This document shows, in pieces, positions 29,414-39,548 of a DNA stretch of 48,515 bases. A program made the translations under genes and the position numbers. The DNA comes from a virus. The stretch spans positions 1 through 48,515 of IMG/VR virus record IMGVR_UViG_3300042879_002447; one strand, given 5' to 3'. The number at the start of each line of letters is the position of its first letter. The stretch's first letter is position 1. A model generated the notes under the pieces. That model searched no databases, was not told the origin of the DNA, and saw only the letters and a list, made by a program, of their open reading frames with translations.

Positions 29414-32400
29414 TTGGCAGCGGAAAATCCCACATTTGGTTGCGGGGCTTTCCTTCCAGGATATGGTCCCTTCAGCTTTGAAGATTTTGATGATGGATTC
29501 TCTGTAGATATTCCAGATGATCCTCCAAATAATGGAGGTCCTTCTACACCTATAGAACCTGATATAGATACAGATTTAGGTACAACAGTTCCAGGTGTAC
29601 CAAATCCATCTACTCCAGGACTTGGAGACACAACTCCAACACCTCCAACAGGTAGCGGACCTTTAACTGGTGGAACATTTGTGTGTCGATGTAGAGTTGA
29701 TGGACCTCCTACAATTTCTTACACTTATGTTGGTGGAGATGGTTCTTTAGGGAGTGCAGGAACTATTTACACATATAGATGGAAACAAAAATGTAAATCA
29801 GTTAATGTTTCTGATACAAATACGTCAACTAATCAAGTAAACACCTATGTAAATAATATTTTACAAAGTAGACCTCAGTCTAGAGTATTATCTACTCAGG
29901 GTGTGGGTGATAAAAACTGTACTCAAAATGGAGCTTGTGGTGGTCCTTGTGAGGATTTAGTAGTAAATATATTTGTTCCAAGAGTTAGAATAATTACTCC
30001 TGATGCGCCCATTGGAACTGCGACTGTTACACCCCCTTCTGTCATTCCTGATGGGGGAGGAGGTGGTGGAGGTGGAGGTGGTGGACCTAATATATTCATT
30101 GATCAAGTTCCTACACGACCTGCTGGTACTGGATTATCAAATGTTGATACTGGTGGTGGAGGAGGAGGTGGAGGTGGAGGTGGAGGTGATGGTGGAGGTG
30201 GGGGTAATGGACCAATAATTATAATTGACCAAGTTACCACGCGACCTGCTGGTGGAGGAGTTACTGGAATTGATACTGGTGGCGGTGGAGGAGGTGGTGG
30301 TGGAGGTGGTGGTGGACCTTCTATATTCATTGATCAAGTTCCTACACGACCTGCTGGTGGTGGAGTTACTGGAATTGATACTGGTGGCGGTGGGGGTGGC
30401 GGCGGTGGAGGTGGTGGTGGACCTTCTATATTCATTGATCAAGTTCCTACACGACCTGCTGGTGGTGGATTATCGAATGTTGATACTGGTGGTGGTGGAG
30501 GTGGTGGACCAACCATTATCATCAATCAAACACCTGTGCGTCCAATTGGTCCTTCAGTTATTGGCGTAAACTCTCCAGCAGAACCTCCTTCTGTGGGAGA
30601 AGTAGATACTGAAATTTTAACTAATCAAATAGAATCTGCGGAAGCTGAATCTTCAATTGAGTTTTTCAATGGATTAAATGCAAATTTAATGGATTTAACA
30701 AATTCAAAAGTTGTTAATTATTTAATTTCAAATAATCCCACAGGGCTTCAGCCTTTAGGTGCTGCCATAATAACAGATTATAGAAAACCAAGATATGTTA
30801 AAAATGATGTAGGATTTTCCGATATTTTTGCAGATGTAATTGATTCCAATGTTTATTATGTTTTAAAAAATTACACAAATGCATTTGAAAAGTGGGATAG
30901 TAGTTATACCGCAGGAGTAACACCTATAGCAGTATACAATAGTTTAAATCCTGAAACTAGAAATATATTATCTCAAATAAAGAATTTTGATGGGACAAAA
31001 CTAAGTATAAATCAAATATTTGAAATAGTAGGAACAAGAGTTTTAGATGGTACTATAAGAACCTTAACTAAGTCTATCCTTCGTAAATTTTTAGAATATT
31101 CACAATCTACTACAATTTTAGAAATAAAAAGAAATGAATCAAATCTTATTAATGAGATATTTGCATCATTCCTAATAGATAAATTTAAATTTCCATTAGA
31201 TAGATCTAAAGTTAATGGTGTCATGAAACAGCTATTACCTAATTGGAAAACTTTATCATCTGATATTGATAGATATATTGAATTAAATGTTGATGGAGAA
31301 TTAAAAAGATATTATGTAAATGATGATGATACTTTTGTAGATAGAAGCACTTTATCCCTAAAGGATGGTGAATATTTTGATGTAAGAGTATCTGGAAAAG
31401 TTCAAAGACTCTATGCTAAATCAGAAAAGGATCATGCTTATTTAATTCCTGAGAATGTTAGACATAGTATTATTTCTTTATTAGGTGGAGATTCATCAAG
31501 AACTCTACAAGTTAGTGCCAGCCTATCTTCTACCATTGAATTTAATTATTCACTATCAGCACCTAGACAAAACTTTTATTTCCTTAGTTGCGTTTTAAGT
31601 TCAATTAACTCTTCTCCAGTTGAAGGTGTCTTATTACAAAAAACCTCTGCCGTATACAAACTAGCTGAAGCGTCATCTGTAGAAGGACTTAGTGCTATTA
31701 ATGCTTATATTAAATACAAAGCTAATCATAGAGTTTTTGTTCTAGATGATGAAGATATTATGTTGGATTACATAGAACAAACATCTTCAGTTACATTATC
31801 TCAAATGGATGTTATTTCTGATTCTCCAAAAGAAAATAAAGCAGTACCAATACTTACTAGACAAATACCTTGGTACATAATCATATATCCTACCAATAGA
31901 CCTGATTTTAATATATTTAACTCTATATCAAAAATTGATTCCATGCAAACGTCAGGAGCAGTATCAAGATCTTTAAAGTTTAAAACAGCGTTATCTCCAC
32001 AGTTAAATACAACAAATGGAAGTTTATTTGTAAAAAAAGAACTTGAAGGTATAAATTCACAAAATGTTTATCAAGAGACTGGTAATCAATTTAGATTCTA
32101 TAAAATTGATCCAGAAGCAGATATTTATAAAAAAGGATATGAGGACTCTGACGGAAATAAGTTAGAAGCTAAACAAGCTGTTAGAACTAGGCAAAAGTCT
32201 GGGTTTAGAATAGTTAAAGAAATTATTACAGAATTAGATAACAACTATTTACTAGATTTAAATGGATTGGGAAAAAACATAACAGAATTTGATGCGTTTA
32301 GTAGATTAAAGTTTACTGAGTTTAATAGATTGTTAGGACAAGAAAACTTTAGGTTAATTCGCAGTCAATTAAGAAAAGGTATCATAAATGACGTAAAGGT

Positions 32401-32518
32401 AATCCCAGTTATTAATAGAACTAGTAAAAATGTTACATTTAATAATACTCAAATTATTCAGAAAAAGACTGTAGCTCCCGCTGATGAGTTTGAAATAATC
32501 AAAGAATCTGGAATTTAG
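29414..32518 (+). CDS. Tail/adhesin-type protein with polyglycine repeat region
   Basis: A 1034-residue protein. TTG start 29414 is supported by AAGGGAG eight bases upstream and by its place two bases after the previous stop. Residues 1-85 are acidic and Pro/Gly-rich (IPDDPPNNGGP, TPTPPTGSGP). Residues 86-185 have several cysteines (CRCR, CGGPC). Residues 214-387 hold five units of (Gly)7-20-P-x-[IF]x[IF]-[DN]Q-x-P-x-RPxG (own entry). From about 390 to the end it is a helix-rich, charged structural domain. Polyglycine helices are the fold of the T4-group gp38 adhesin tip, but there they lie at the C-terminus; here they look like a spacer or arm. It closes the fibre block. Confidence 0.65.
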   Translation: MAAENPTFGCGAFLPGYGPFSFEDFDDGFSVDIPDDPPNNGGPSTPIEPDIDTDLGTTVPGVPNPSTPGLGDTTPTPPTGSGPLTGGTFVCRCRVDGPPTISYTYVGGDGSLGSAGTIYTYRWKQKCKSVNVSDTNTSTNQVNTYVNNILQSRPQSRVLSTQGVGDKNCTQNGACGGPCEDLVVNIFVPRVRIITPDAPIGTATVTPPSVIPDGGGGGGGGGGGPNIFIDQVPTRPAGTGLSNVDTGGGGGGGGGGGGDGGGGGNGPIIIIDQVTTRPAGGGVTGIDTGGGGGGGGGGGGGPSIFIDQVPTRPAGGGVTGIDTGGGGGGGGGGGGGPSIFIDQVPTRPAGGGLSNVDTGGGGGGGPTIIINQTPVRPIGPSVIGVNSPAEPPSVGEVDTEILTNQIESAEAESSIEFFNGLNANLMDLTNSKVVNYLISNNPTGLQPLGAAIITDYRKPRYVKNDVGFSDIFADVIDSNVYYVLKNYTNAFEKWDSSYTAGVTPIAVYNSLNPETRNILSQIKNFDGTKLSINQIFEIVGTRVLDGTIRTLTKSILRKFLEYSQSTTILEIKRNESNLINEIFASFLIDKFKFPLDRSKVNGVMKQLLPNWKTLSSDIDRYIELNVDGELKRYYVNDDDTFVDRSTLSLKDGEYFDVRVSGKVQRLYAKSEKDHAYLIPENVRHSIISLLGGDSSRTLQVSASLSSTIEFNYSLSAPRQNFYFLSCVLSSINSSPVEGVLLQKTSAVYKLAEASSVEGLSAINAYIKYKANHRVFVLDDEDIMLDYIEQTSSVTLSQMDVISDSPKENKAVPILTRQIPWYIIIYPTNRPDFNIFNSISKIDSMQTSGAVSRSLKFKTALSPQLNTTNGSLFVKKELEGINSQNVYQETGNQFRFYKIDPEADIYKKGYEDSDGNKLEAKQAVRTRQKSGFRIVKEIITELDNNYLLDLNGLGKNITEFDAFSRLKFTEFNRLLGQENFRLIRSQLRKGIINDVKVIPVINRTSKNVTFNNTQIIQKKTVAPADEFEIIKESGI
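30053..30574 (+). repeat. Five-unit polyglycine/PxIFIDQ tandem repeat
   Basis: Units start (proline codon) at 30086, 30212, 30317, 30422 and 30509; spacings are 126, 105, 105 and 87 bases, all multiples of three. Each has a GGT/GGA run coding 7-20 glycines (one run broken by Asp and Asn), then a module like PSIFIDQVPTRPAGGG and a [VI]DTG tail. Units 3 and 4 are nearly identical at the DNA level, pointing to recent unequal exchange. The reverse strand gives long polyproline open frames that are artefacts of the same repeat. Confidence 0.9.
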
Positions 32519-32610: not shown

Positions 32611-33123
32611 ATGGATCACGTTAGACTTAGCGACGAACTTCGTCAAAAACTTATTGAATCAGCCGCTTGGGGCAAGGTTGGTGTTGATACTCGGTTAGAC
32701 GAGTCAGCCTCAAAAAAGGTCATAGAAGAAAAGAAACATTCTGATGAAGCTGAAGATACAAAGCTTATAAAGAAGGTAATGAAGAAAGAAGAAAAGAAAG
32801 AGCACAAGAAGGGTAAGGGTAAAGCCGACAAGGATTGTGCTGTAATGGATTCTACAGAGGCGCAGGACGGCGATGACGCTGAAGGACTCGAAGAGAATGT
32901 TCACGTTTGCCCCTTATGCACTTCACAGCTAGAAGAAGCTCTAGAGGAGGAGCGTCTCCTTGAGCACCTCGATGTAATCATGGGTCTAGTTGAGCGTCTA
33001 AGCCAACTAAACGAAGGTGAAGAGGATGTCGAAGCTGTAATTGATCAAACGATCAAAGAGATTCTTCTCCAAGATGATACCGAAACTCTAGACGAAGACG
33101 AAGAAGTAGTCGAAGAAGAGTGA
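32611..33123 (+). CDS. Small acidic/Lys-rich prohead core protein (putative)
   Basis: A 170-residue, extremely charged protein: a Lys/Glu-rich segment at about 39-75 (KEEKKEHKKGKGK), a CPLC pair near 99-103, a helical Glu/Leu-rich part and a poly-acidic C-terminus (DEDEEVVEEE). It opens the prohead block, where T4 has gp67/gp68 core proteins. The N-terminus contains LIE/S (LRQKLIESAAW), a match to the T4 gp21 cleavage consensus [LI]-x-E, so it may be processed in the prohead. The start has an excellent SD. Role inferred from composition and position. Confidence 0.6.
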   Translation: MDHVRLSDELRQKLIESAAWGKVGVDTRLDESASKKVIEEKKHSDEAEDTKLIKKVMKKEEKKEHKKGKGKADKDCAVMDSTEAQDGDDAEGLEENVHVCPLCTSQLEEALEEERLLEHLDVIMGLVERLSQLNEGEEDVEAVIDQTIKEILLQDDTETLDEDEEVVEEE

Positions 33124-33142: not shown

Positions 33143-33652
33143 ATGAAGGGAAGTATAGGAGACTTCGCAGAAAGACTCATACAAGAAAGTGTGAGTAATA
33201 TAAAGAGTGGTAAGGAGCTACCTCAAACCACTTCTAAAAAACAGGACGCTATTCCAGCAGGTATAGACGTTTCTAAAGTAAAAGTTCCTGATTCTTTCAT
33301 GAAGCAAATATTAGGGGAGCAGTTTACTCCTCAAGATGCAAAACCTGTTGATATGATACCCGAGCTTGTTTGGGCTGAAAATAAACCCGAAGAGGAGCCT
33401 ATGAAAAACCCACAGTTAATGACTGAGGAAACAGCACAAGAATTAGTTCCTCTTTTACAGCAAGTTATAGGGCTTTTACAAGAGATGACTACAACTGGTA
33501 GTGTTGGAATTAATTTAGCTGGCCCTACTAAACAAAAGAATATTCCTTTTGAAAAAATAGAAGCCAATTATGGTTATAAAAAATCTACACCAGCACCTAA
33601 GACTCGTTCTCAAATTTTAAAAGCATCAATAAAATCTAGACTAAAGAAATGA
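33143..33652 (+). CDS. Putative internal prohead protein (169 aa)
   Basis: Not recognised by family. N-terminus SIGDFAERLIQESVS resembles the capsid-targeting/cleavage peptide seen in other head genes here: I-G, then L-I-x-E followed by a small residue. A conserved-looking ELVWAENK and a helical LVPLLQQVIGLLQEM stretch (about 101-115) follow. The C-terminus is basic (SQILKASIKSRLKK). Its stop overlaps the next ATG (ATGA at 33649). Likely a core or internal head protein cut by the prohead protease. Confidence 0.6.
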   Translation: MKGSIGDFAERLIQESVSNIKSGKELPQTTSKKQDAIPAGIDVSKVKVPDSFMKQILGEQFTPQDAKPVDMIPELVWAENKPEEEPMKNPQLMTEETAQELVPLLQQVIGLLQEMTTTGSVGINLAGPTKQKNIPFEKIEANYGYKKSTPAPKTRSQILKASIKSRLKK

Positions 33653-34068
33653 AAATAACAGAAGCCATTGATAATATTAACGAAGCGCGAGGCTCTAAAT
33701 CTGGTAGAGAAGTCTACGGATCTAAAGAAGGAACCAAGCGTAATGTTAAGAAAGCATTCAAAGGCAGAGTTGTAACATTTGATAGTATTAGAGACGCTTT
33801 GAATGATGGTAAATATGGACAAATATTTACTACAAAAGCAGCAGGTCGTTTATATGTAATCTCAAAAGGAAAATGGGGAGCTAAGAGCGGACGAGGTAAA
33901 ATCGCAAAAGGATTTACACCAGGAAGCTCAACACCTTCTTCTGGTTGGGATAGCATAAAGAAACACGCTGCAAGAACAACTCTACGTTATGGTGGAGGCT
34001 CCGATAAATTAGCTCAAAAATATGGAAGTAGATCTATCAAGAAAGAGCGAGGTCTAAAGTATAAATAA
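33649..34068 (+). CDS. Basic internal head protein (putative, 139 aa)
   Basis: A strongly basic protein (many Lys/Arg, Gly/Ser-rich C-terminal half) starting MKITEAIDNINEARGSKSG. Two [LI]-x-E sites (ITE5 and INE12) lie at the very start, the arrangement of T4 internal proteins, whose short N-terminal capsid-targeting peptide is removed by gp21. The middle (GRVVTFDSIRDAL, YGQIFTTKAAGRLYVISKG) could be a small folded domain. Its end shares a base with the ATG of the protease gene. Inferred to be packaged with, or to bind, the genome. Confidence 0.6.
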   Translation: MKITEAIDNINEARGSKSGREVYGSKEGTKRNVKKAFKGRVVTFDSIRDALNDGKYGQIFTTKAAGRLYVISKGKWGAKSGRGKIAKGFTPGSSTPSSGWDSIKKHAARTTLRYGGGSDKLAQKYGSRSIKKERGLKYK

Positions 34069-35363
34069 TGCAGTTACTACAAGATGTATTCATAATAGAA
34101 AAACTTCAAGTTCTTAACGAGGGAGCAGCTAAAGACACCATGAGAATTCGTGGCGTATTTGGTCGCTGTAACGAAAAGAATAATAATGGACGTATATATC
34201 CTACGTCTGTTTTAGAAAGCCAACTAAAGAAAGTTCAACCTTTAATTCAAGAGCGTAGACTTTGTGGTGAATTAGATCACCCATCAAATGATACCGTAAA
34301 ACTTTCCAATGCTTCACACTTAATTACGAAGCTTGAAATAAAAGGTAATGAACTCATAGGTGAAGCAGAGATCCTCAAGACTCCTGCTGGTTTAACTGCA
34401 AAGGCTTTAATAGATGGCGGCGTTCGTATTGGTATTTCTTCCCGTGGTATGGGTACACTCTCTGAAGATGCCCAAGGTAATAAAATCGTTAATGAAGATT
34501 TCAGATTAGTTACGTTTGATCTTGTAGCTGATCCATCTACAAGGGGAGCGTTCCCATCATTAGCTGAGTCTACTCAATCACGTTTTGTAAGAGAGTCTCA
34601 AACCAAGTTACAAAAAGAAAGTAACTTTGTAACTTTGCTTAGATCAAAGTTGAGAGAAGAATATGCTTTAGTATTAACTGAGAAAGGTCCTCGACCCCCA
34701 CCTCCACCTCCATCTCCATCTCCATCTCCACTTCCACCACAACAACCATCACCTTCTGGACCACCTTCTGGACCAGATGATGCTGATCCAGAAGAAGAAC
34801 AATTCCAGAAATATATGAGTAGATATCAAGCTATGGCTATGGCTCAACCACAACCTTCTACTGGAAATATATTTAAAGATTACATAGCAAGATATCATCA
34901 GCAAAAAAGTATTGAGAATTTAGCTCAAGCTAGAGCTAGAGGAGAAGGGCAAGCTCAGAAAATTAAACTACAAAATGCTGAAAGAGCCAAGCGAAGAGCG
35001 GCTGCTGGTGCTGCTGGTGCTCCAACTTTAGCCCGTGACTGGCTTAATTGGAGAAAAGCTAAAGTAGGAATAGGAAGAGGAATAGCTCACCTTACTGGAA
35101 AACCTCTTACAACATCAACAGAATATGCTCGTATAGGTAAGATATTAGCAGAAGCTTTGTTTACCAAGATAGGTAAAGGTAAATTTGGTATGGTGTCAAC
35201 TCCAAAAAAAGCAGGAGGTAAGGCATCAGTATTCCGTAGTCCAACAGGAAAAGAAGGCGAAGAAAAGGTATTAACAACGAGTGCTAGAGTAGTTAAAACT
35301 TCTACAAAGCGTGCTGATCAATGGGAGAAAGCTGCTAAGAAAAGAGAAGGCGAAAAAGACTAA
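34068..35363 (+). CDS. 21: Prohead protease (gp21-like) with long C-terminal extension
   Basis: Residues 1-205 are a T4 gp21-type (S80/U9) serine protease that matures the prohead: GRCNEKNNNGRIYP (32-45), GELDHP with catalytic H71, SH at 83-84, GISSRGMG with S124/S125, and FDLVADPSTRG (150-160). [LI]-x-E sites at IIE11 and LNE18 could be autocleavage sites. T4 gp21 is only about 212 residues; here a Pro/Ser-rich linker (about 205-235, PPPPPPSPSPSP) joins ~195 further residues that are basic and Ala/Lys-rich. That extension contains YARIGKILAEALF (about 353-365), nearly the same peptide as starts two small head proteins nearby. Cutting after E362 would release a 69-residue basic peptide. Confidence 0.88.
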   Translation: MQLLQDVFIIEKLQVLNEGAAKDTMRIRGVFGRCNEKNNNGRIYPTSVLESQLKKVQPLIQERRLCGELDHPSNDTVKLSNASHLITKLEIKGNELIGEAEILKTPAGLTAKALIDGGVRIGISSRGMGTLSEDAQGNKIVNEDFRLVTFDLVADPSTRGAFPSLAESTQSRFVRESQTKLQKESNFVTLLRSKLREEYALVLTEKGPRPPPPPPSPSPSPLPPQQPSPSGPPSGPDDADPEEEQFQKYMSRYQAMAMAQPQPSTGNIFKDYIARYHQQKSIENLAQARARGEGQAQKIKLQNAERAKRRAAAGAAGAPTLARDWLNWRKAKVGIGRGIAHLTGKPLTTSTEYARIGKILAEALFTKIGKGKFGMVSTPKKAGGKASVFRSPTGKEGEEKVLTTSARVVKTSTKRADQWEKAAKKREGEKD

Positions 35364-35365
35364 TT

Positions 35366-35671
35366 ATGAACAATACTTATAAAAATATAGGCTTAATTAT
35401 AGCCGAGGCTTTAAATTTAGTTGAAAAAAATTACTCAGTAGATCCTGATGATAAATATAAGGAACAACAAAATGTTCATGGACGCTCCAGAAAATCTAGA
35501 TTTGAGACTCGCGGGGGAAAAGAATATGCTATGGACTACGATGAAGATCCAAATGCTCCTAAAGGAACTATTAAAATTCGCAGACGTACAATAACGGCAC
35601 ATAGACCTACTGGATCTAAAGAACCTTTTACCCCAGTAAAACCTAAATCAGAACGCAAAAAGTCCACATAA
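35366..35671 (+). CDS. Small basic head protein with capsid-targeting-like peptide
   Basis: A 101-residue protein beginning MNNTYKNIGLIIAEALNLVE. The segment TYKNIGLIIAEAL (4-16) matches the motif in the protease extension and in the protein at 39204. A gp21-type cut after E14 would leave an 87-residue basic protein (RSRKSRFETRGG, KIRRRTITAHRP, KSERKKST). It follows the protease gene by two bases. By analogy with T4 internal proteins it is probably packed into the prohead and may enter the cell with the DNA. Confidence 0.62.
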   Translation: MNNTYKNIGLIIAEALNLVEKNYSVDPDDKYKEQQNVHGRSRKSRFETRGGKEYAMDYDEDPNAPKGTIKIRRRTITAHRPTGSKEPFTPVKPKSERKKST

Positions 35672-35685
35672 CAACGCATACATTT

Positions 35686-35709
35686 TTTAAAAAAACTTAT
35701 TTTTTTAAA
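35686..35709 (+). terminator. A/T-only 10-bp inverted repeat before the scaffold gene
   Basis: TTTAAAAAAA, loop CTTA, TTTTTTTAAA in the 76-base gap between the small head protein and the scaffold gene. As a weak hairpin with long T runs it could slow polymerase, or it may be curved DNA upstream of a promoter. The gap also holds AATAGATATATTTA (35717-35730) and the AGGAG site for 35748. Function uncertain. Confidence 0.3.
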
Positions 35710-35747
35710 GAATCATTAATAGATATATTTAACCTAGGAGATTATTC

Positions 35748-36395
35748 ATGAATAAATTAAAGAATATTGCTGATATTCTTCCCGAAGGACTTGATCAGTC
35801 TACTGTTGAAGCTATTTTCCGATTAGTAGACAATACAATAAATGATCAGGTTAATGAGAAGATTGGTTTACTTGAGGCAAAAGTTAGTGCCTATCTAAGA
35901 ACCAAAGTTGATCAGCTAAAAGAACAAGCTCTTACTGAGCTAAGTGAAGAGAACGAAGTATTCCGTAATGCTCGCCTCTTTGAATCGGTAAGAACTTTAA
36001 TGGCTCTAGAACTTAGTGATGCTGATGAAACAAATGCTCTTTCTGAGATGACCGAACAACACGGAGAACTTCAGGAAGAGTTTGACGTTTTAACTGAACA
36101 AGTTAATAAACTTGTCATTGAAAACGAAAAGCTTCAAGGCACTATTAAGGTTCTCAAGGATAAAGTTTCCCTAACGGAGGGTACTGTTGAGAAACTCAAG
36201 GGTCAAAAAGCACAACTTCTCGAAGAAGTTGAGAATCTTGTGGCTGCTAAGGATGAGGCTTTTAAGTCCTCTGAACAAGCAGTGGTGGTATCCAAAGCGG
36301 ATAAAGTTATCACCGAAGAAAAGGTAAATTTAAGAAATAATACCTTTTTAACTGATGAGGTCATGAAGTTCATGCCCTTCTCCCCAAAAAATTAA
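35748..36395 (+). CDS. 22: Prohead core scaffold protein (gp22-like)
   Basis: A 215-residue, acidic, almost entirely coiled-coil protein (EQHGELQEEFDVLTEQVNKL, then VIENEKLQGTIKVLKDKV and LKGQKAQLLEEVENLVAAK). It sits directly between the protease and the major capsid protein, the fixed place of T4 gp22. Several [LI]-x-E sites (ILPE13, LLE near 43-45) fit its expected digestion by the protease. Good AGGAG ribosome binding site. Shorter than T4 gp22 (269). Confidence 0.85.
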   Translation: MNKLKNIADILPEGLDQSTVEAIFRLVDNTINDQVNEKIGLLEAKVSAYLRTKVDQLKEQALTELSEENEVFRNARLFESVRTLMALELSDADETNALSEMTEQHGELQEEFDVLTEQVNKLVIENEKLQGTIKVLKDKVSLTEGTVEKLKGQKAQLLEEVENLVAAKDEAFKSSEQAVVVSKADKVITEEKVNLRNNTFLTDEVMKFMPFSPKN

Positions 36396-36408
36396 GGGAT
36401 TATAGATT

Positions 36409-38064
36409 ATGGATATAATGCATCGTACTGATGATACGTTGGTCCAGAAGTGGGAGCCTGTCCTTGAGGGCATCGGCAACGAGTACACTCGTCGTGTAAC
36501 GGCTCAACTTCTTGAGAACCAAGCAAGAGCAATTGTTCAAGAGCGAATTAACGAAGATATTACAACAAACACCACCACAACTGGTCAACTTGGCGTCTTC
36601 CAAAAGTTTGCTTTCCCTCTAGTTCGTAGAGTTTACCCCGAGCTAATCGCTAACAAGATCGTTGGTGTTCAGCCTATGCAGGGACCTGTTTCGCAAGTCT
36701 TCTACTTAGGTAACACCCGCGCTATTGGTGGCTCTCGTCAAACGGTTTACAGCAAGTTTAACCTAACTTATAAGGGTGGTGCTGCATATCCAATAGGATC
36801 ACTTCAGCATAATGCTATTGGAGCAGCCCTTAGTCAAGGTACATATAGAACTGCGGCAGGAGCATTAGCTCTTTCTGGTCCAGGTCTAGACGGTGATTTT
36901 GCTTCCAACGGGTTTGACGTATCAAACGTCCTAAACACTCTAAGCGGTTCTACGCAACTAGTAGGTGCGGGCGCTCCTTCGGGTACATTTGGTGGTCAAA
37001 TTGCTGCTTGGCCTAACGTAAGCGCAATTTATGGATACTCATTATCAGCAGGTGAGCGTCTAACTGGAACAGGCATCCCTGAGATGACATTCCACATCGA
37101 GCAAGAGGCAGTTGTGGCAAATACTCGTAAGATGCGTGCATTGTGGACTCTTGAAGCTTCGCAAGATCTCAAGGCTTATCACAATCTCGATCTAGAGCGT
37201 GAACTAACTGAACTTCTCTCAAAGGAACTTCAACTTGAAATAGACCGAGAACTCATAGAAGATCTTCGCATGATCGCTTATGGGTTCCGTAACCGTACTT
37301 TAGGTGGTGTAAACCAAAACCTAATGGATAACGATTATGTTTCACTAGGAGGATTCCCTGGTGTTAAGTCTAACCATGTTGTAGAGGATTTTGTTCCACA
37401 ACAGTTTACCTACGACTTTAACGGTGGGGAAGGTACTGGAACAGCTAAAGAATATGGTGGAGTTCTTACCTCATCAGGATCAAACGTCTTTATTATAGAC
37501 TTTGGTCAACAATCATTAAGTATGTATCCTCGCCACGTTGGTGAAGTTTATGCAAACCTCCTAGCACTAATCAACTTAGCTGCTCAGGACATTCACCGTA
37601 CCACAATGCGGGGTCCTGGTAACTGGCTACTAACCTCACCACTAGTTGCATCGCTCCTCGAAAGTGCTGCCAAGCTAGAAGGTGGTATCGCCCGCGAAGA
37701 TGGTCCAACAAACATGGGTGCCAACAGCATTCAGTTCAAGGGCAAGTTCATGGGTCGCTACGATCTCTATGTTGATCCCATGTTCCCACAAGACGAAATT
37801 CTTGTAGGCTATAAGGGTTCAAATGCTATGGACTCTGGATTCATCTACGCTCCATACATCCCACTACAACAGTTACCAACAATCACTGATCCTGAATCTT
37901 TCCAACCAAGAAAGGGTATTCTCACCCGCTATGGTAAGGTTCAGATTCAGCCCTACAACAGATTCTATAGAATGATCAGAATCGTTGGCCCAACGGCTAA
38001 CTACCTCTTCACACCATTTGCTAGAAATACTCAGACACTAAATAACACTAACTTCGGTTACTAG
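36409..38064 (+). CDS. 23: Major capsid protein (gp23-like)
   Basis: A 551-residue HK97-fold capsid protein of gp23 type; T4 gp23 is 521. Typical segments: FPLVRRVYPELIANKIVGVQ and QPMQGPVSQVFYLG in the N-arm region, FHIEQEAVVANTRKMRALWT, LDLERELTELLSKELQLEID, and a C-terminal RMIRIVGPTANYLF. A propeptide is likely: INE49/D50 (also VLE20/G and LLE36/N) fits the [LI]-x-E cleavage rule, near T4's E65. Codons differ from the tail genes (more C-ending codons such as CTC, AAC and CGC), as expected of the most highly expressed gene. AAGGGA precedes ATG 36409. A strong hairpin follows. Confidence 0.93.
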   Translation: MDIMHRTDDTLVQKWEPVLEGIGNEYTRRVTAQLLENQARAIVQERINEDITTNTTTTGQLGVFQKFAFPLVRRVYPELIANKIVGVQPMQGPVSQVFYLGNTRAIGGSRQTVYSKFNLTYKGGAAYPIGSLQHNAIGAALSQGTYRTAAGALALSGPGLDGDFASNGFDVSNVLNTLSGSTQLVGAGAPSGTFGGQIAAWPNVSAIYGYSLSAGERLTGTGIPEMTFHIEQEAVVANTRKMRALWTLEASQDLKAYHNLDLERELTELLSKELQLEIDRELIEDLRMIAYGFRNRTLGGVNQNLMDNDYVSLGGFPGVKSNHVVEDFVPQQFTYDFNGGEGTGTAKEYGGVLTSSGSNVFIIDFGQQSLSMYPRHVGEVYANLLALINLAAQDIHRTTMRGPGNWLLTSPLVASLLESAAKLEGGIAREDGPTNMGANSIQFKGKFMGRYDLYVDPMFPQDEILVGYKGSNAMDSGFIYAPYIPLQQLPTITDPESFQPRKGILTRYGKVQIQPYNRFYRMIRIVGPTANYLFTPFARNTQTLNNTNFGY

Positions 38065-38087
38065 TAACTGAATAGGTATTAATTAAA

Positions 38088-38118
38088 AGGGTCGGAGGAT
38101 TTTTTATCCTCCGACCCT
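38088..38118 (+). terminator. Perfect 13-bp hairpin after the major capsid gene
   Basis: AGGGTCGGAGGAT, loop TTTTT, ATCCTCCGACCCT, 24 bases after the capsid stop. It is the most GC-rich and stable hairpin noticed in the window. A downstream T-run is missing (CTATCGTTCC follows), so it is not a classic intrinsic terminator; it may block 3' exonucleases to protect the abundant capsid mRNA, or end it with help. A promoter-like box follows at 38128. Confidence 0.75.
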
Positions 38119-38127
38119 CTATCGTTC

Positions 38128-38136
38128 CTATATAAT
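38128..38136 (+). promoter_or_regulatory. CTATATAAT promoter-like box after the capsid hairpin
   Basis: Identical nonamer to 5076-5084, ten bases before ATG 38147, with a GAGAGG ribosome binding site between (38138-38143). Hairpin then promoter then a new gene array is a natural transcription-unit border. Candidate late promoter; inferred. Confidence 0.45.
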
Positions 38137-38146
38137 TGAGAGGCTT

Positions 38147-38320
38147 ATGTATAAGTATATAAGTAAATGCAGATGTAATATGCTGCTTTATGTGGATGGG
38201 AATATAATAGAAATACGCCCTTCTGAATTATTTGAGTCTAAAGCTCTAATGGATTCTAGATACTTAGAGCTAATCGAAGAGCCTAAACAAGAAGAACCTG
38301 AAATAAAGAAGAAGAAATAA
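38147..38320 (+). CDS. Small protein opening the neck gene array (57 aa)
   Basis: A 57-residue protein, MYKYISKCRCNMLLYVDGNI at the start and a KQEEPEIKKKK tail. GAGAGG lies three bases upstream of the ATG and the next gene follows after one base. Its plan (short strand N-x-L/V-x-hydrophobic, turn, I-x-P/G, helix, L-x-x-R-x-hydrophobic) resembles the 58-residue protein at 41476, which likewise opens an array and precedes a tail gene. Function unknown; a small structural or assembly protein is possible. Confidence 0.6.
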   Translation: MYKYISKCRCNMLLYVDGNIIEIRPSELFESKALMDSRYLELIEEPKQEEPEIKKKK

Positions 38321-38321
38321 T

Positions 38322-39194
38322 ATGGTAGTAAAAGTAGATCCAATGTTACTATATTATGGAGATACATTCGGAACCTATGCTGGTAGAAACTTAGGTGATA
38401 CCGATATTTACTCCACGGCTATTGATTCTTCTAAATTAAACACAGGTACTTTTGAAGATGGTATTGAATTAAATAACTTTGAAAAGACTATAAAAGATTT
38501 TATATTAGCTCGTTTAGGTTATCCTGTTGTAAGAGTTGAGTTAACAGACTTCCAAATTAAGACCGCTATAGATGAAGCCATAACAAATCTAGACTATCAT
38601 GCTCCATTCTGGACTACTCAAATGGCTGCATTTGATACAATAGCGGATGTTAATATGTATATGCTTCCAACCCATATTGCTTATAATTTAAGCTACTGTG
38701 TATACAAAAAATCATTATTAAGTTTCCAAAATATGGCTGGGACACTTGAGTTTGATTTCTTCATTAAATATTTCCAAGATAACTTTTTAATGTCTAATTT
38801 TAATGTTTCTGATTTCTATTTAATGCAAATGAATTTAGAAATGATCAGAAAGGTATTGAGTCAAGAAGGTTCTTGGGATATAATAAATGGTAATATTCTA
38901 CAACTATACCCTGCTCCAGCAGTGAATGGTGAGACAGTTATCGTAGTTTATAGAGGGTTAGATACAGCTACGATGCATCCTTACTATAAAAACTGGATTC
39001 AAAGATTCGCTCTTGCTGTTGCTAAGGGTATCCTTGGCGAAATAAGAGGAAAGTATTCTTCACTCCCATCTCCTGGGGGTGGAGCTACATTAAACGGTAA
39101 AGACTTGCTTTCAGCAAGCCAGCAGGAGAAAGAAAAACTTAAAGAGGAGCTACTATATGAAATAGAAGAGCCTCCAGTATTTACATTATTCTAA
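38322..39194 (+). CDS. 13: Neck protein gp13-like
   Basis: A 290-residue protein resembling T4 gp13 (309), which completes the head and receives the tail. Recognisable: FILARLGYPVVRVELTDFQI (about 65-84), a following helical EAITNLDYHA, WIQRFALAVAKGILGEIRGK (about 226-245), the glycine turn LPSPGGGATLNGKDLL, and a charged helix QQEKEKLKEELLYEIEEPP near the end. Lies after the capsid gene and upstream of gp14/gp15-like genes. Confidence 0.75.
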   Translation: MVVKVDPMLLYYGDTFGTYAGRNLGDTDIYSTAIDSSKLNTGTFEDGIELNNFEKTIKDFILARLGYPVVRVELTDFQIKTAIDEAITNLDYHAPFWTTQMAAFDTIADVNMYMLPTHIAYNLSYCVYKKSLLSFQNMAGTLEFDFFIKYFQDNFLMSNFNVSDFYLMQMNLEMIRKVLSQEGSWDIINGNILQLYPAPAVNGETVIVVYRGLDTATMHPYYKNWIQRFALAVAKGILGEIRGKYSSLPSPGGGATLNGKDLLSASQQEKEKLKEELLYEIEEPPVFTLF

Positions 39195-39203
39195 AGGACT
39201 ATT

Positions 39204-39548
39204 ATGAAAAATCAAAAAGGAAAAAAGGATTTAGCAGGATTATACCCACCATACGATAAGATTACCAGAGGTGATGTTATTGCTGGAAGAATTGGGAAAA
39301 AGAAAAAGATGCAGGATTGGACAGTTTATCATCAACTAGGTATTCACTTAGCGGAAGCTTTGGGGGTGGTTGCAGAACAGAAGGAACACCCTGATAAAGA
39401 AGAAGCTGAACGCTTTTCAAAAATGAGCGATAAGCAACTAAAGGAGCGTCCTGGAAAAGTTGATAATATGTCAGGAATAAAAGCTGCTGCAAAAAGAGCA
39501 GCAGCAAGAGGAGCTAAAAATGTTCCTCAATCAAAAAGACCTTACTAA
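39204..39548 (+). CDS. Basic head protein with internal targeting-like peptide (114 aa)
   Basis: A 114-residue, very basic protein. VYHQLGIHLAEAL (41-53) matches the peptide in the protease extension and in the protein at 35366; a gp21-type cut would fall after E51. The ~40 residues before it are also basic (GRIGKKKKMQD), and the C-terminus is a basic Ala/Lys/Arg helix (GIKAAAKRAAARGAKNVP). Unlike T4 internal proteins the site is not N-terminal, so both halves might be released. AAAGGACT precedes the ATG. Likely a DNA-binding internal protein. Confidence 0.6.
   Translation: MKNQKGKKDLAGLYPPYDKITRGDVIAGRIGKKKKMQDWTVYHQLGIHLAEALGVVAEQKEHPDKEEAERFSKMSDKQLKERPGKVDNMSGIKAAAKRAAARGAKNVPQSKRPY

Follow-up and report, generated by a model that had tools for sequence, protein, structure and literature searches.

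A conserved peptide on exchangeable basic proteins of a T4-like virus family, a probable prohead-targeting and cleavage tag

The DNA analysed here, called the window throughout, is a 48.5-kb fragment (IMG/VR record IMGVR_UViG_3300042879_002447) of a T4-like virus without a close isolate. Three proteins encoded among its head genes, a prohead protease and two small basic proteins, share a short peptide, and the question raised by this locus is what such a peptide is for. An earlier note on this DNA had proposed a shared capsid-targeting and cleavage peptide that loads basic proteins into the prohead. Judged from sequence, this is the best-supported explanation: the peptide is kept while the cargo varies, the layout matches that of phage T4, and a protease of the T4 gp21 type (family S77) adjoins. 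We regard it as quite likely that this virus family uses the peptide as one tag for both prohead targeting and cleavage.

Occurrence and conservation of the peptide

All three copies are in frame in the window (Table 1), one N-terminal, one internal and one in the protease, a placement that differs from T4 as the earlier note had stated. Its pattern, [YF]xx[IL]Gxx[LI]AEAL, has 3 matches in the 37 window proteins, with 0.0 expected when each protein was shuffled 2000 times, and no further match exists among them; a relaxed pattern is expected 0.013 times in the shuffled window compared with the 3 seen. Chance similarity is ruled out by these shuffles together with the selection on the peptide described below. 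The protease copy, which had been assigned to the protease as such, is present but lies outside the catalytic domain, in a variable basic C-terminal extension that resembles a fused cargo module. Copy 3 scores highest of the window copies under the family profile. A start at Met36 (39309), which would make copy 3 N-terminal, is disfavoured because the upstream residues DLAxLYPPYDKxTRGDVIAGR are kept in the relatives L002 and L005 and all three genes have an upstream start with the same leader sequence.

About 85 distinct relatives were collected from IMG/VR in scans that used the capsid protein and the protease as queries. Most of them have the peptide as well, nearly always at one of two hypervariable sites. 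Slot A follows the protease catalytic domain and precedes the scaffold, and is usually a C-terminal extension of the protease; slot B lies between the Ad2/gp13-like and neck genes. The motif search in relatives that the earlier note had called for thus finds the peptide again, with 62 copies of the relaxed pattern in 53 of the 96 non-redundant slot proteins (21,904 amino acids; 0.013 copies expected). The conserved-gene set (477 proteins, 126,586 amino acids) holds only 2 copies, both in gp67-like core proteins; the gp67-like proteins of L050 and L051 match the pattern exactly. A profile built from the copies finds 67 of the 96 slot proteins. Two DNA patterns encoding the peptide, scanned across the 2.9 million viral contigs of IMG/VR, returned 2 and 28 stretches, every one of them the peptide in the head slots of the window's virus family; being narrow and derived from the family, these patterns show specificity and not full range.

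The consensus of 57 non-redundant copies is T-x-Y-[HKQ]-[QRD]-[IML]-G-x-x-[LIM]-A-E-[AS]-[LFM]-G-L-x-x-E. About 20 positions are conserved, and the information falls to background a few residues beyond each side. Positions +1, +2 and +11 to +16 lie outside the search pattern and are conserved too, so the signal was not created by the pattern itself. When each fixed position was freed in turn the same consensus residues returned: E in 61 of 66 (with D in 3 and V in 2), Y or W at the aromatic position in 61 of 64, and I, M, L, F or V at position i+3 in 61 of 62. The peptide is under purifying selection. It is encoded by 68 distinct DNA versions, in which the E codon is GAG in 35 and GAA in 33; the ratio of nonsynonymous to synonymous differences (pN/pS) is 0.06 over 23 codons in one N-terminal set, and for copy 2 pS is 0.54 and pN 0.09 over 20 codons in four relatives. 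Modelled as a helix the peptide is amphipathic, with a mean helical moment of 0.31 compared with 0.21 after shuffling. Nine of the 62 copies begin 12 or fewer residues from the start of the sequence used, the others being internal or C-terminal, and some proteins contain several copies.

The proteins that carry the peptide are basic and exchangeable. Median net charge of the slot proteins is +10 per 100 residues, and 93% exceed +5 per 100; the corresponding values for the scaffold and the gp67-like protein are -13 and -20. In L002, L005 and L076 the relatives of the 35366 protein have the N-terminal peptide as well and diverge beyond it. L033 and L034 share 99.7% identity over a 919-bp stretch that spans the Ad2 gene and ends inside the peptide; beyond it they encode unrelated slot-B proteins, and identity resumes, at 97%, in the neck gene. 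L030, 97.7% identical to both over Ad2, carries the same peptide deeper in a third, different protein. An assembly chimera could explain one such pair, not the repeated pattern (L019, L026, L029, L030, L033, L034, L038).

The peptide is also found in unlinked genes, which extends the earlier note. A profile search of 22 longer relatives, window included, identified unlinked small basic open reading frames (ORFs) with the peptide, two adjacent in L156, two in L157 and one in L159, as well as an unlinked 330-residue ORF with two copies in L158. Those of L157 and L158 lie between pieces of the DNA polymerase gene. In these two relatives (L158:87-3667, L157:164-3358) the A-type polymerase gene is split into several ORFs, with the tagged small ORFs on the opposite strand between them.

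Relation to the T4 targeting sequence and the prohead protease

T4 internal proteins II and III (IPII and IPIII) start MKTYQEFIAE/A (a slash marks the cut here and below). In the T4 capsid-targeting sequence (CTS), residues 4 and 7 direct core targeting and residues 8 and 10 direct cutting, and Asp at position 10 stops the cut while leaving targeting intact; gp21 cuts after L/I-x-E and is also trimmed at its own C-terminal end (PMC9026906). The internal proteins of T4 are diverse and have the targeting sequence alone in common (PMC3012670). The CTS of IPI, IPII, IPIII and Alt and the peptide described here have much in common: an aromatic residue and a hydrophobic one three positions on, followed by [LI]xE/A; a conserved tag on diverse basic proteins; and a gp21-type protease. 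T4 internal-protein genes also lie apart from the T4 head genes, as do the unlinked tagged ORFs. The family peptide differs in having nine residues from Y to E where T4 has six, an extra G-x-x turn that refines the reading of the earlier note. Its conservation also reaches further to either side, many copies are internal or C-terminal, and it can be fused to the protease and may occur several times per protein.

The peptide thus has the aromatic/hydrophobic pair at i and i+3, [LIM]AE directly after it, and diverse, mostly basic cargo, but most copies have neither the six-residue spacing nor the N-terminal position of a T4 CTS. Because of these two differences we do not class it as a strict member; it appears to work like one and would be a longer, more widely placed version of the label known from T4. 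T4 itself, a cyanophage, a Vibrio phage and two uncultured records contain no copy of the peptide. In phiKZ and SPN3US many internal head proteins are likewise matured by a gp21-related protease after x-x-E at multiple sites (PMC5694885), but there the propeptides exceed 100 residues, and one peptide of ~20 residues common to these proteins is not reported in the papers. No report of the peptide was found in the papers searched on capsid targeting, prohead proteases and polyproteins, and protease, prohead and internal proteins are unmentioned in the text of a paper on far-T4 phages (PMC4360716).

The major capsid protein provides a point of reference for cleavage. At one column near its N-terminus, [LIVM]xE is present in 94% of 63 relatives despite nearby insertions, and P3 is L, I or M in 59 of the 63, the same choices as in the peptide. 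The adjacent protease matches Pfam PF03420 (E 1.7e-24), PHROG 207 and, in PDB 5jbl, T4 gp21 both by sequence (E 4e-16) and by fold (E about 1e-12). Its GELxHP and GxSSRG blocks and the following D align with T4 gp21 (MEROPS S77) and are invariant in the 18 relatives compared for the window family. We take these to be the active-site blocks.

Most relatives align with the window protease over residues 1-199 alone, and what follows varies. This extension is 100-640 residues long in most of them, is basic and carries one or more peptide copies; in T4 gp21 about 30 residues follow the domain. T4 gp21 (L143:3949-4587) ends in AYMALAEAMKKAL, akin to the C-terminal copies on the family proteases, and the protease of a T4-like Vibrio phage ends in EFAKLAETLKTLL, so that the copy at the C-terminus of the protease is probably an elaboration of something older. 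T4 spacing is also seen in AYQPWIEEA, the sequence with which the protease domain ends in many relatives. From the peptide onward, the window protease tail is homologous to a separate 85-residue ORF in L076 (MSLFNAYKLIGSLLAEAVFTQIGKGKFGM...) that begins directly past the stop of the preceding ORF; a cargo gene therefore appears to be fused to that of the window protease, as judged from one imperfect contig in which the protease gene is broken. L076 (IMGVR_UViG_3300045125_000023) is 96% identical to the window in its protease and 61% in its capsid protein, and is a recombinant or an error-rich contig. Many relatives (L007:3834-5258, L071:3464-5260 and other protease ORFs) contain an EF-hand/dockerin-like loop (FPDLNKDGEITKADVLVGRG; DTDGDGKIEASDLAAL; weak Pfam match) between the protease domain and a form of the peptide with W at the aromatic position (W-form). 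The N-terminal part of the window 39204 protein (YPPYDKITRGDVIAGRI) looks like a decayed loop of this kind.

Proposed function and alternatives

Our best reading is that the peptide is a T4-type CTS plus one extra helical turn, in which a helix that docks on the core ([YW]..I) precedes the site for the prohead protease ([LIM]AE/A). The first half, [YW]xx[IML], would dock as an amphipathic helix on the acidic scaffold or core during prohead assembly; the scaffold (35748-36395) is the candidate partner, by analogy with T4 (PMC9026906). The second half, [LIM]-A-E/[AS], would be cut by the adjacent gp21-type protease, freeing the cargo at head maturation. Any small, mostly basic protein with the tag would be loaded, so that cargo could be exchanged freely while the tag is kept, and tagged proteins would be expected in virions. 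In slot A, where cargo and protease are usually one chain, both would enter the core together and the protease could free itself. Delivery of the cargo into the host may follow; the 'injected effector' of the earlier note comes solely by analogy with T4 internal proteins.

Several observations weigh against this reading. Four protease fusions end 5-7 residues past the E, where a cut would release nothing, and several W-forms beside the protease ('ADGHWHRIAE...', e.g. WHRIAEVVRGR) are without the LAE site. Three copies carry D in place of E. Of the 96 slot ORFs, 29 have no copy, several of these ORFs being broken or partial. AlphaFold predicts the peptide as a helix in both window proteins tested, with low to moderate confidence: copy 1 as a helix at 350-363 with low confidence, and copy 3 as a helix at 41-52, the most confident stretch of its protein. 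A tblastn search of the phage collection with two slot proteins found no isolate with the peptide. From the chains that end soon after E and the W-forms without LAE, it appears that docking is needed where no cargo is released and that the docking and cutting functions separate in these sequences.

The same features make docking without cleavage the most serious alternative. The peptide would then do no more than dock as a helix on the core or scaffold, its A-E part belonging to the binding face and remaining uncut. C-terminal copies on the protease, W-forms without LAE and copies with D for E all need docking but no cut, and the helical moment agrees with a docking helix. Yet [LIM]-x-E/[AS] is a T4-type site whose P3 choice is that of the capsid-protein site, and the E is nearly invariant and faces away from the Y-I-L stripe. 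We consider docking alone unlikely. Cleavage alone, with the peptide as a linker between parts of a head polyprotein and no role in targeting, is improbable: the internal positions in fused ORFs and the matching protease specificity agree with it, but a three-residue site would be enough and about 20 positions are conserved, the peptide is N-terminal on separate small ORFs, and some protease fusions end just past it. That the peptide is a recently duplicated or recombined DNA module kept by descent and not by function is already largely refuted and very improbable; close relatives do share a DNA block around it at the cargo breakpoint, but L033 and L034 differ there by 8 synonymous changes and 1 nonsynonymous change in 23 codons, and the many DNA versions include same-genome copies that differ strongly outside the key positions. 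It is equally improbable that nucleoid-like proteins use the peptide to self-associate or to bind DNA, with no connection to head assembly; the basic cargo would suit this, but the peptide itself is not basic, is joined to the prohead protease in most relatives and occurs in two gp67-like core proteins.

Taken as a combined targeting and cleavage tag, the peptide would be part of an open loading system. In this wider proposal, which we favour somewhat over its denial, one tag-and-cut peptide, terminal or internal in the protein that bears it, brings exchangeable basic proteins into the head, and the protease is made as a polyprotein with such cargo, tying assembly, dosage and cargo release to the protease.

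Neighbouring genes, other cargo modules and implications

The gp23-type capsid protein of the window is less than 60% identical to all of 50,697 phage records, with the best at about 28-37%, and no relative of it was found in genome contigs searched for the host. Around the peptides the gene order is gp67-like (32611), gp68-like (33143), a very basic protein (33649), the S77 prohead protease (34068), a small protein (35366), scaffold (35748), capsid protein (36409), Ad2/gp13-like (38322), small proteins (39204, 39552) and a neck-like gene (39776). The names gp67, gp68 and scaffold are given by position and character, without a profile match, and Pfam and PHROGs searches with the small proteins of the window gave nothing useful.

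Table 1. Features of the peptide-bearing region in window coordinates
Feature	Position	Strand	Remarks
gp67-like acidic core protein	32611..33123	+	N-terminal AAWGKVGVDTRLDE/S, similar to the W-form
Very basic protein, charge +22	33649..34068	+	Short N-terminal leader MKITEAIDNINE/A
S77 prohead protease, T4 gp21 type, 431 residues	34068..35363	+	Catalytic domain ~residues 1-199, then variable basic C-terminal extension
Protease extension, fused part of slot A	34668..35363	+	Proline-rich linker, basic region, peptide, basic tail
Peptide copy 1, YARIGKILAEAL	35124..35159	+	Residues 353-364 of 431, in protease extension; predicted cut after LAE
Small basic protein, 101 residues, charge +8	35366..35671	+	Slot A, separate ORF
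Peptide copy 2, YKNIGLIIAEAL	35378..35413	+	Residues 5-16 of 101, N-terminal; NLVE next
Scaffold/core protein, gp22-like	35748..36395	+	Between protease and capsid genes; charge -15; many conserved LxE sites
Major capsid protein, gp23 type	36409..38064	+	Pfam PF07068, E 4e-80; predicted maturation site RINE49/D
Small basic protein, 114 residues, charge +12	39204..39548	+	Slot B; relatives in L002 and L005
Peptide copy 3, YHQLGIHLAEAL	39327..39362	+	Residues 42-53 of 114, internal

The weaker relatives of the peptide that the earlier note had listed in three neighbouring genes had mixed outcomes. At 33649 the N-terminal [LIM]xE/A is well conserved, with [LIM]xE at residue 12 in 95% of 38 relatives. 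The 33143 protein instead has its own conserved N-terminal block, SIGDFAExLI, whose register differs and in which the E at the proposed cut is not conserved, and for the 39552 protein no relatives were found outside the window. At about residues 15-32 the window gp67-like protein contains an N-terminal AAWGKxG...LDE/S block akin to the W-form. Upstream, positions 29414-32518 encode a 1034-residue ORF in which long runs of glycine and repeats of FIDQVPTRPAG occur.

Slot proteins of relatives show further recurrent modules. Weak dockerin/EF-hand signals are present, and one slot-B protein contains a DUF6321 domain. A second peptide of T4 length, [NSA]-[YF]-[VI]-[KRQN]-[KA]-L-[MTA]-E, occurs 12 times in slot-B proteins against 0.24 expected; as [YF][VI]xxL[MT]E it is seen in L022, L028, L042, L044, L074 and others, several times directly past an internal Met. 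The slot-B proteins of L006, L012, L014, L027, L042 and L069 share an N-terminal module, MPLTSKGKKIMxxMxKxYGxxxGxxVFYASKNKGTIxGV, which is also present in unrelated pelagiphages and indicates that cargo modules move between virus families. In slot-B proteins of L012, L017, L022 and L096 the peptide is often followed by GxRVDEIAPLxxxxAxxA, a glycine/alanine-rich hydrophobic stretch that may be membrane-active.

If the peptide is indeed a targeting and cleavage tag, it could be read as a marker to predict the unknown proteins that are packed into the head of an uncultured virus, even those encoded far from the head operon, and anonymous, unconserved ORFs would become testable internal or injected proteins. 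The T4 targeting tag would then be ancient, flexible and not confined to N-termini, and a prohead protease could be produced fused to its own cargo. As a tag that already exists, the peptide could also be used to load proteins into phage heads.

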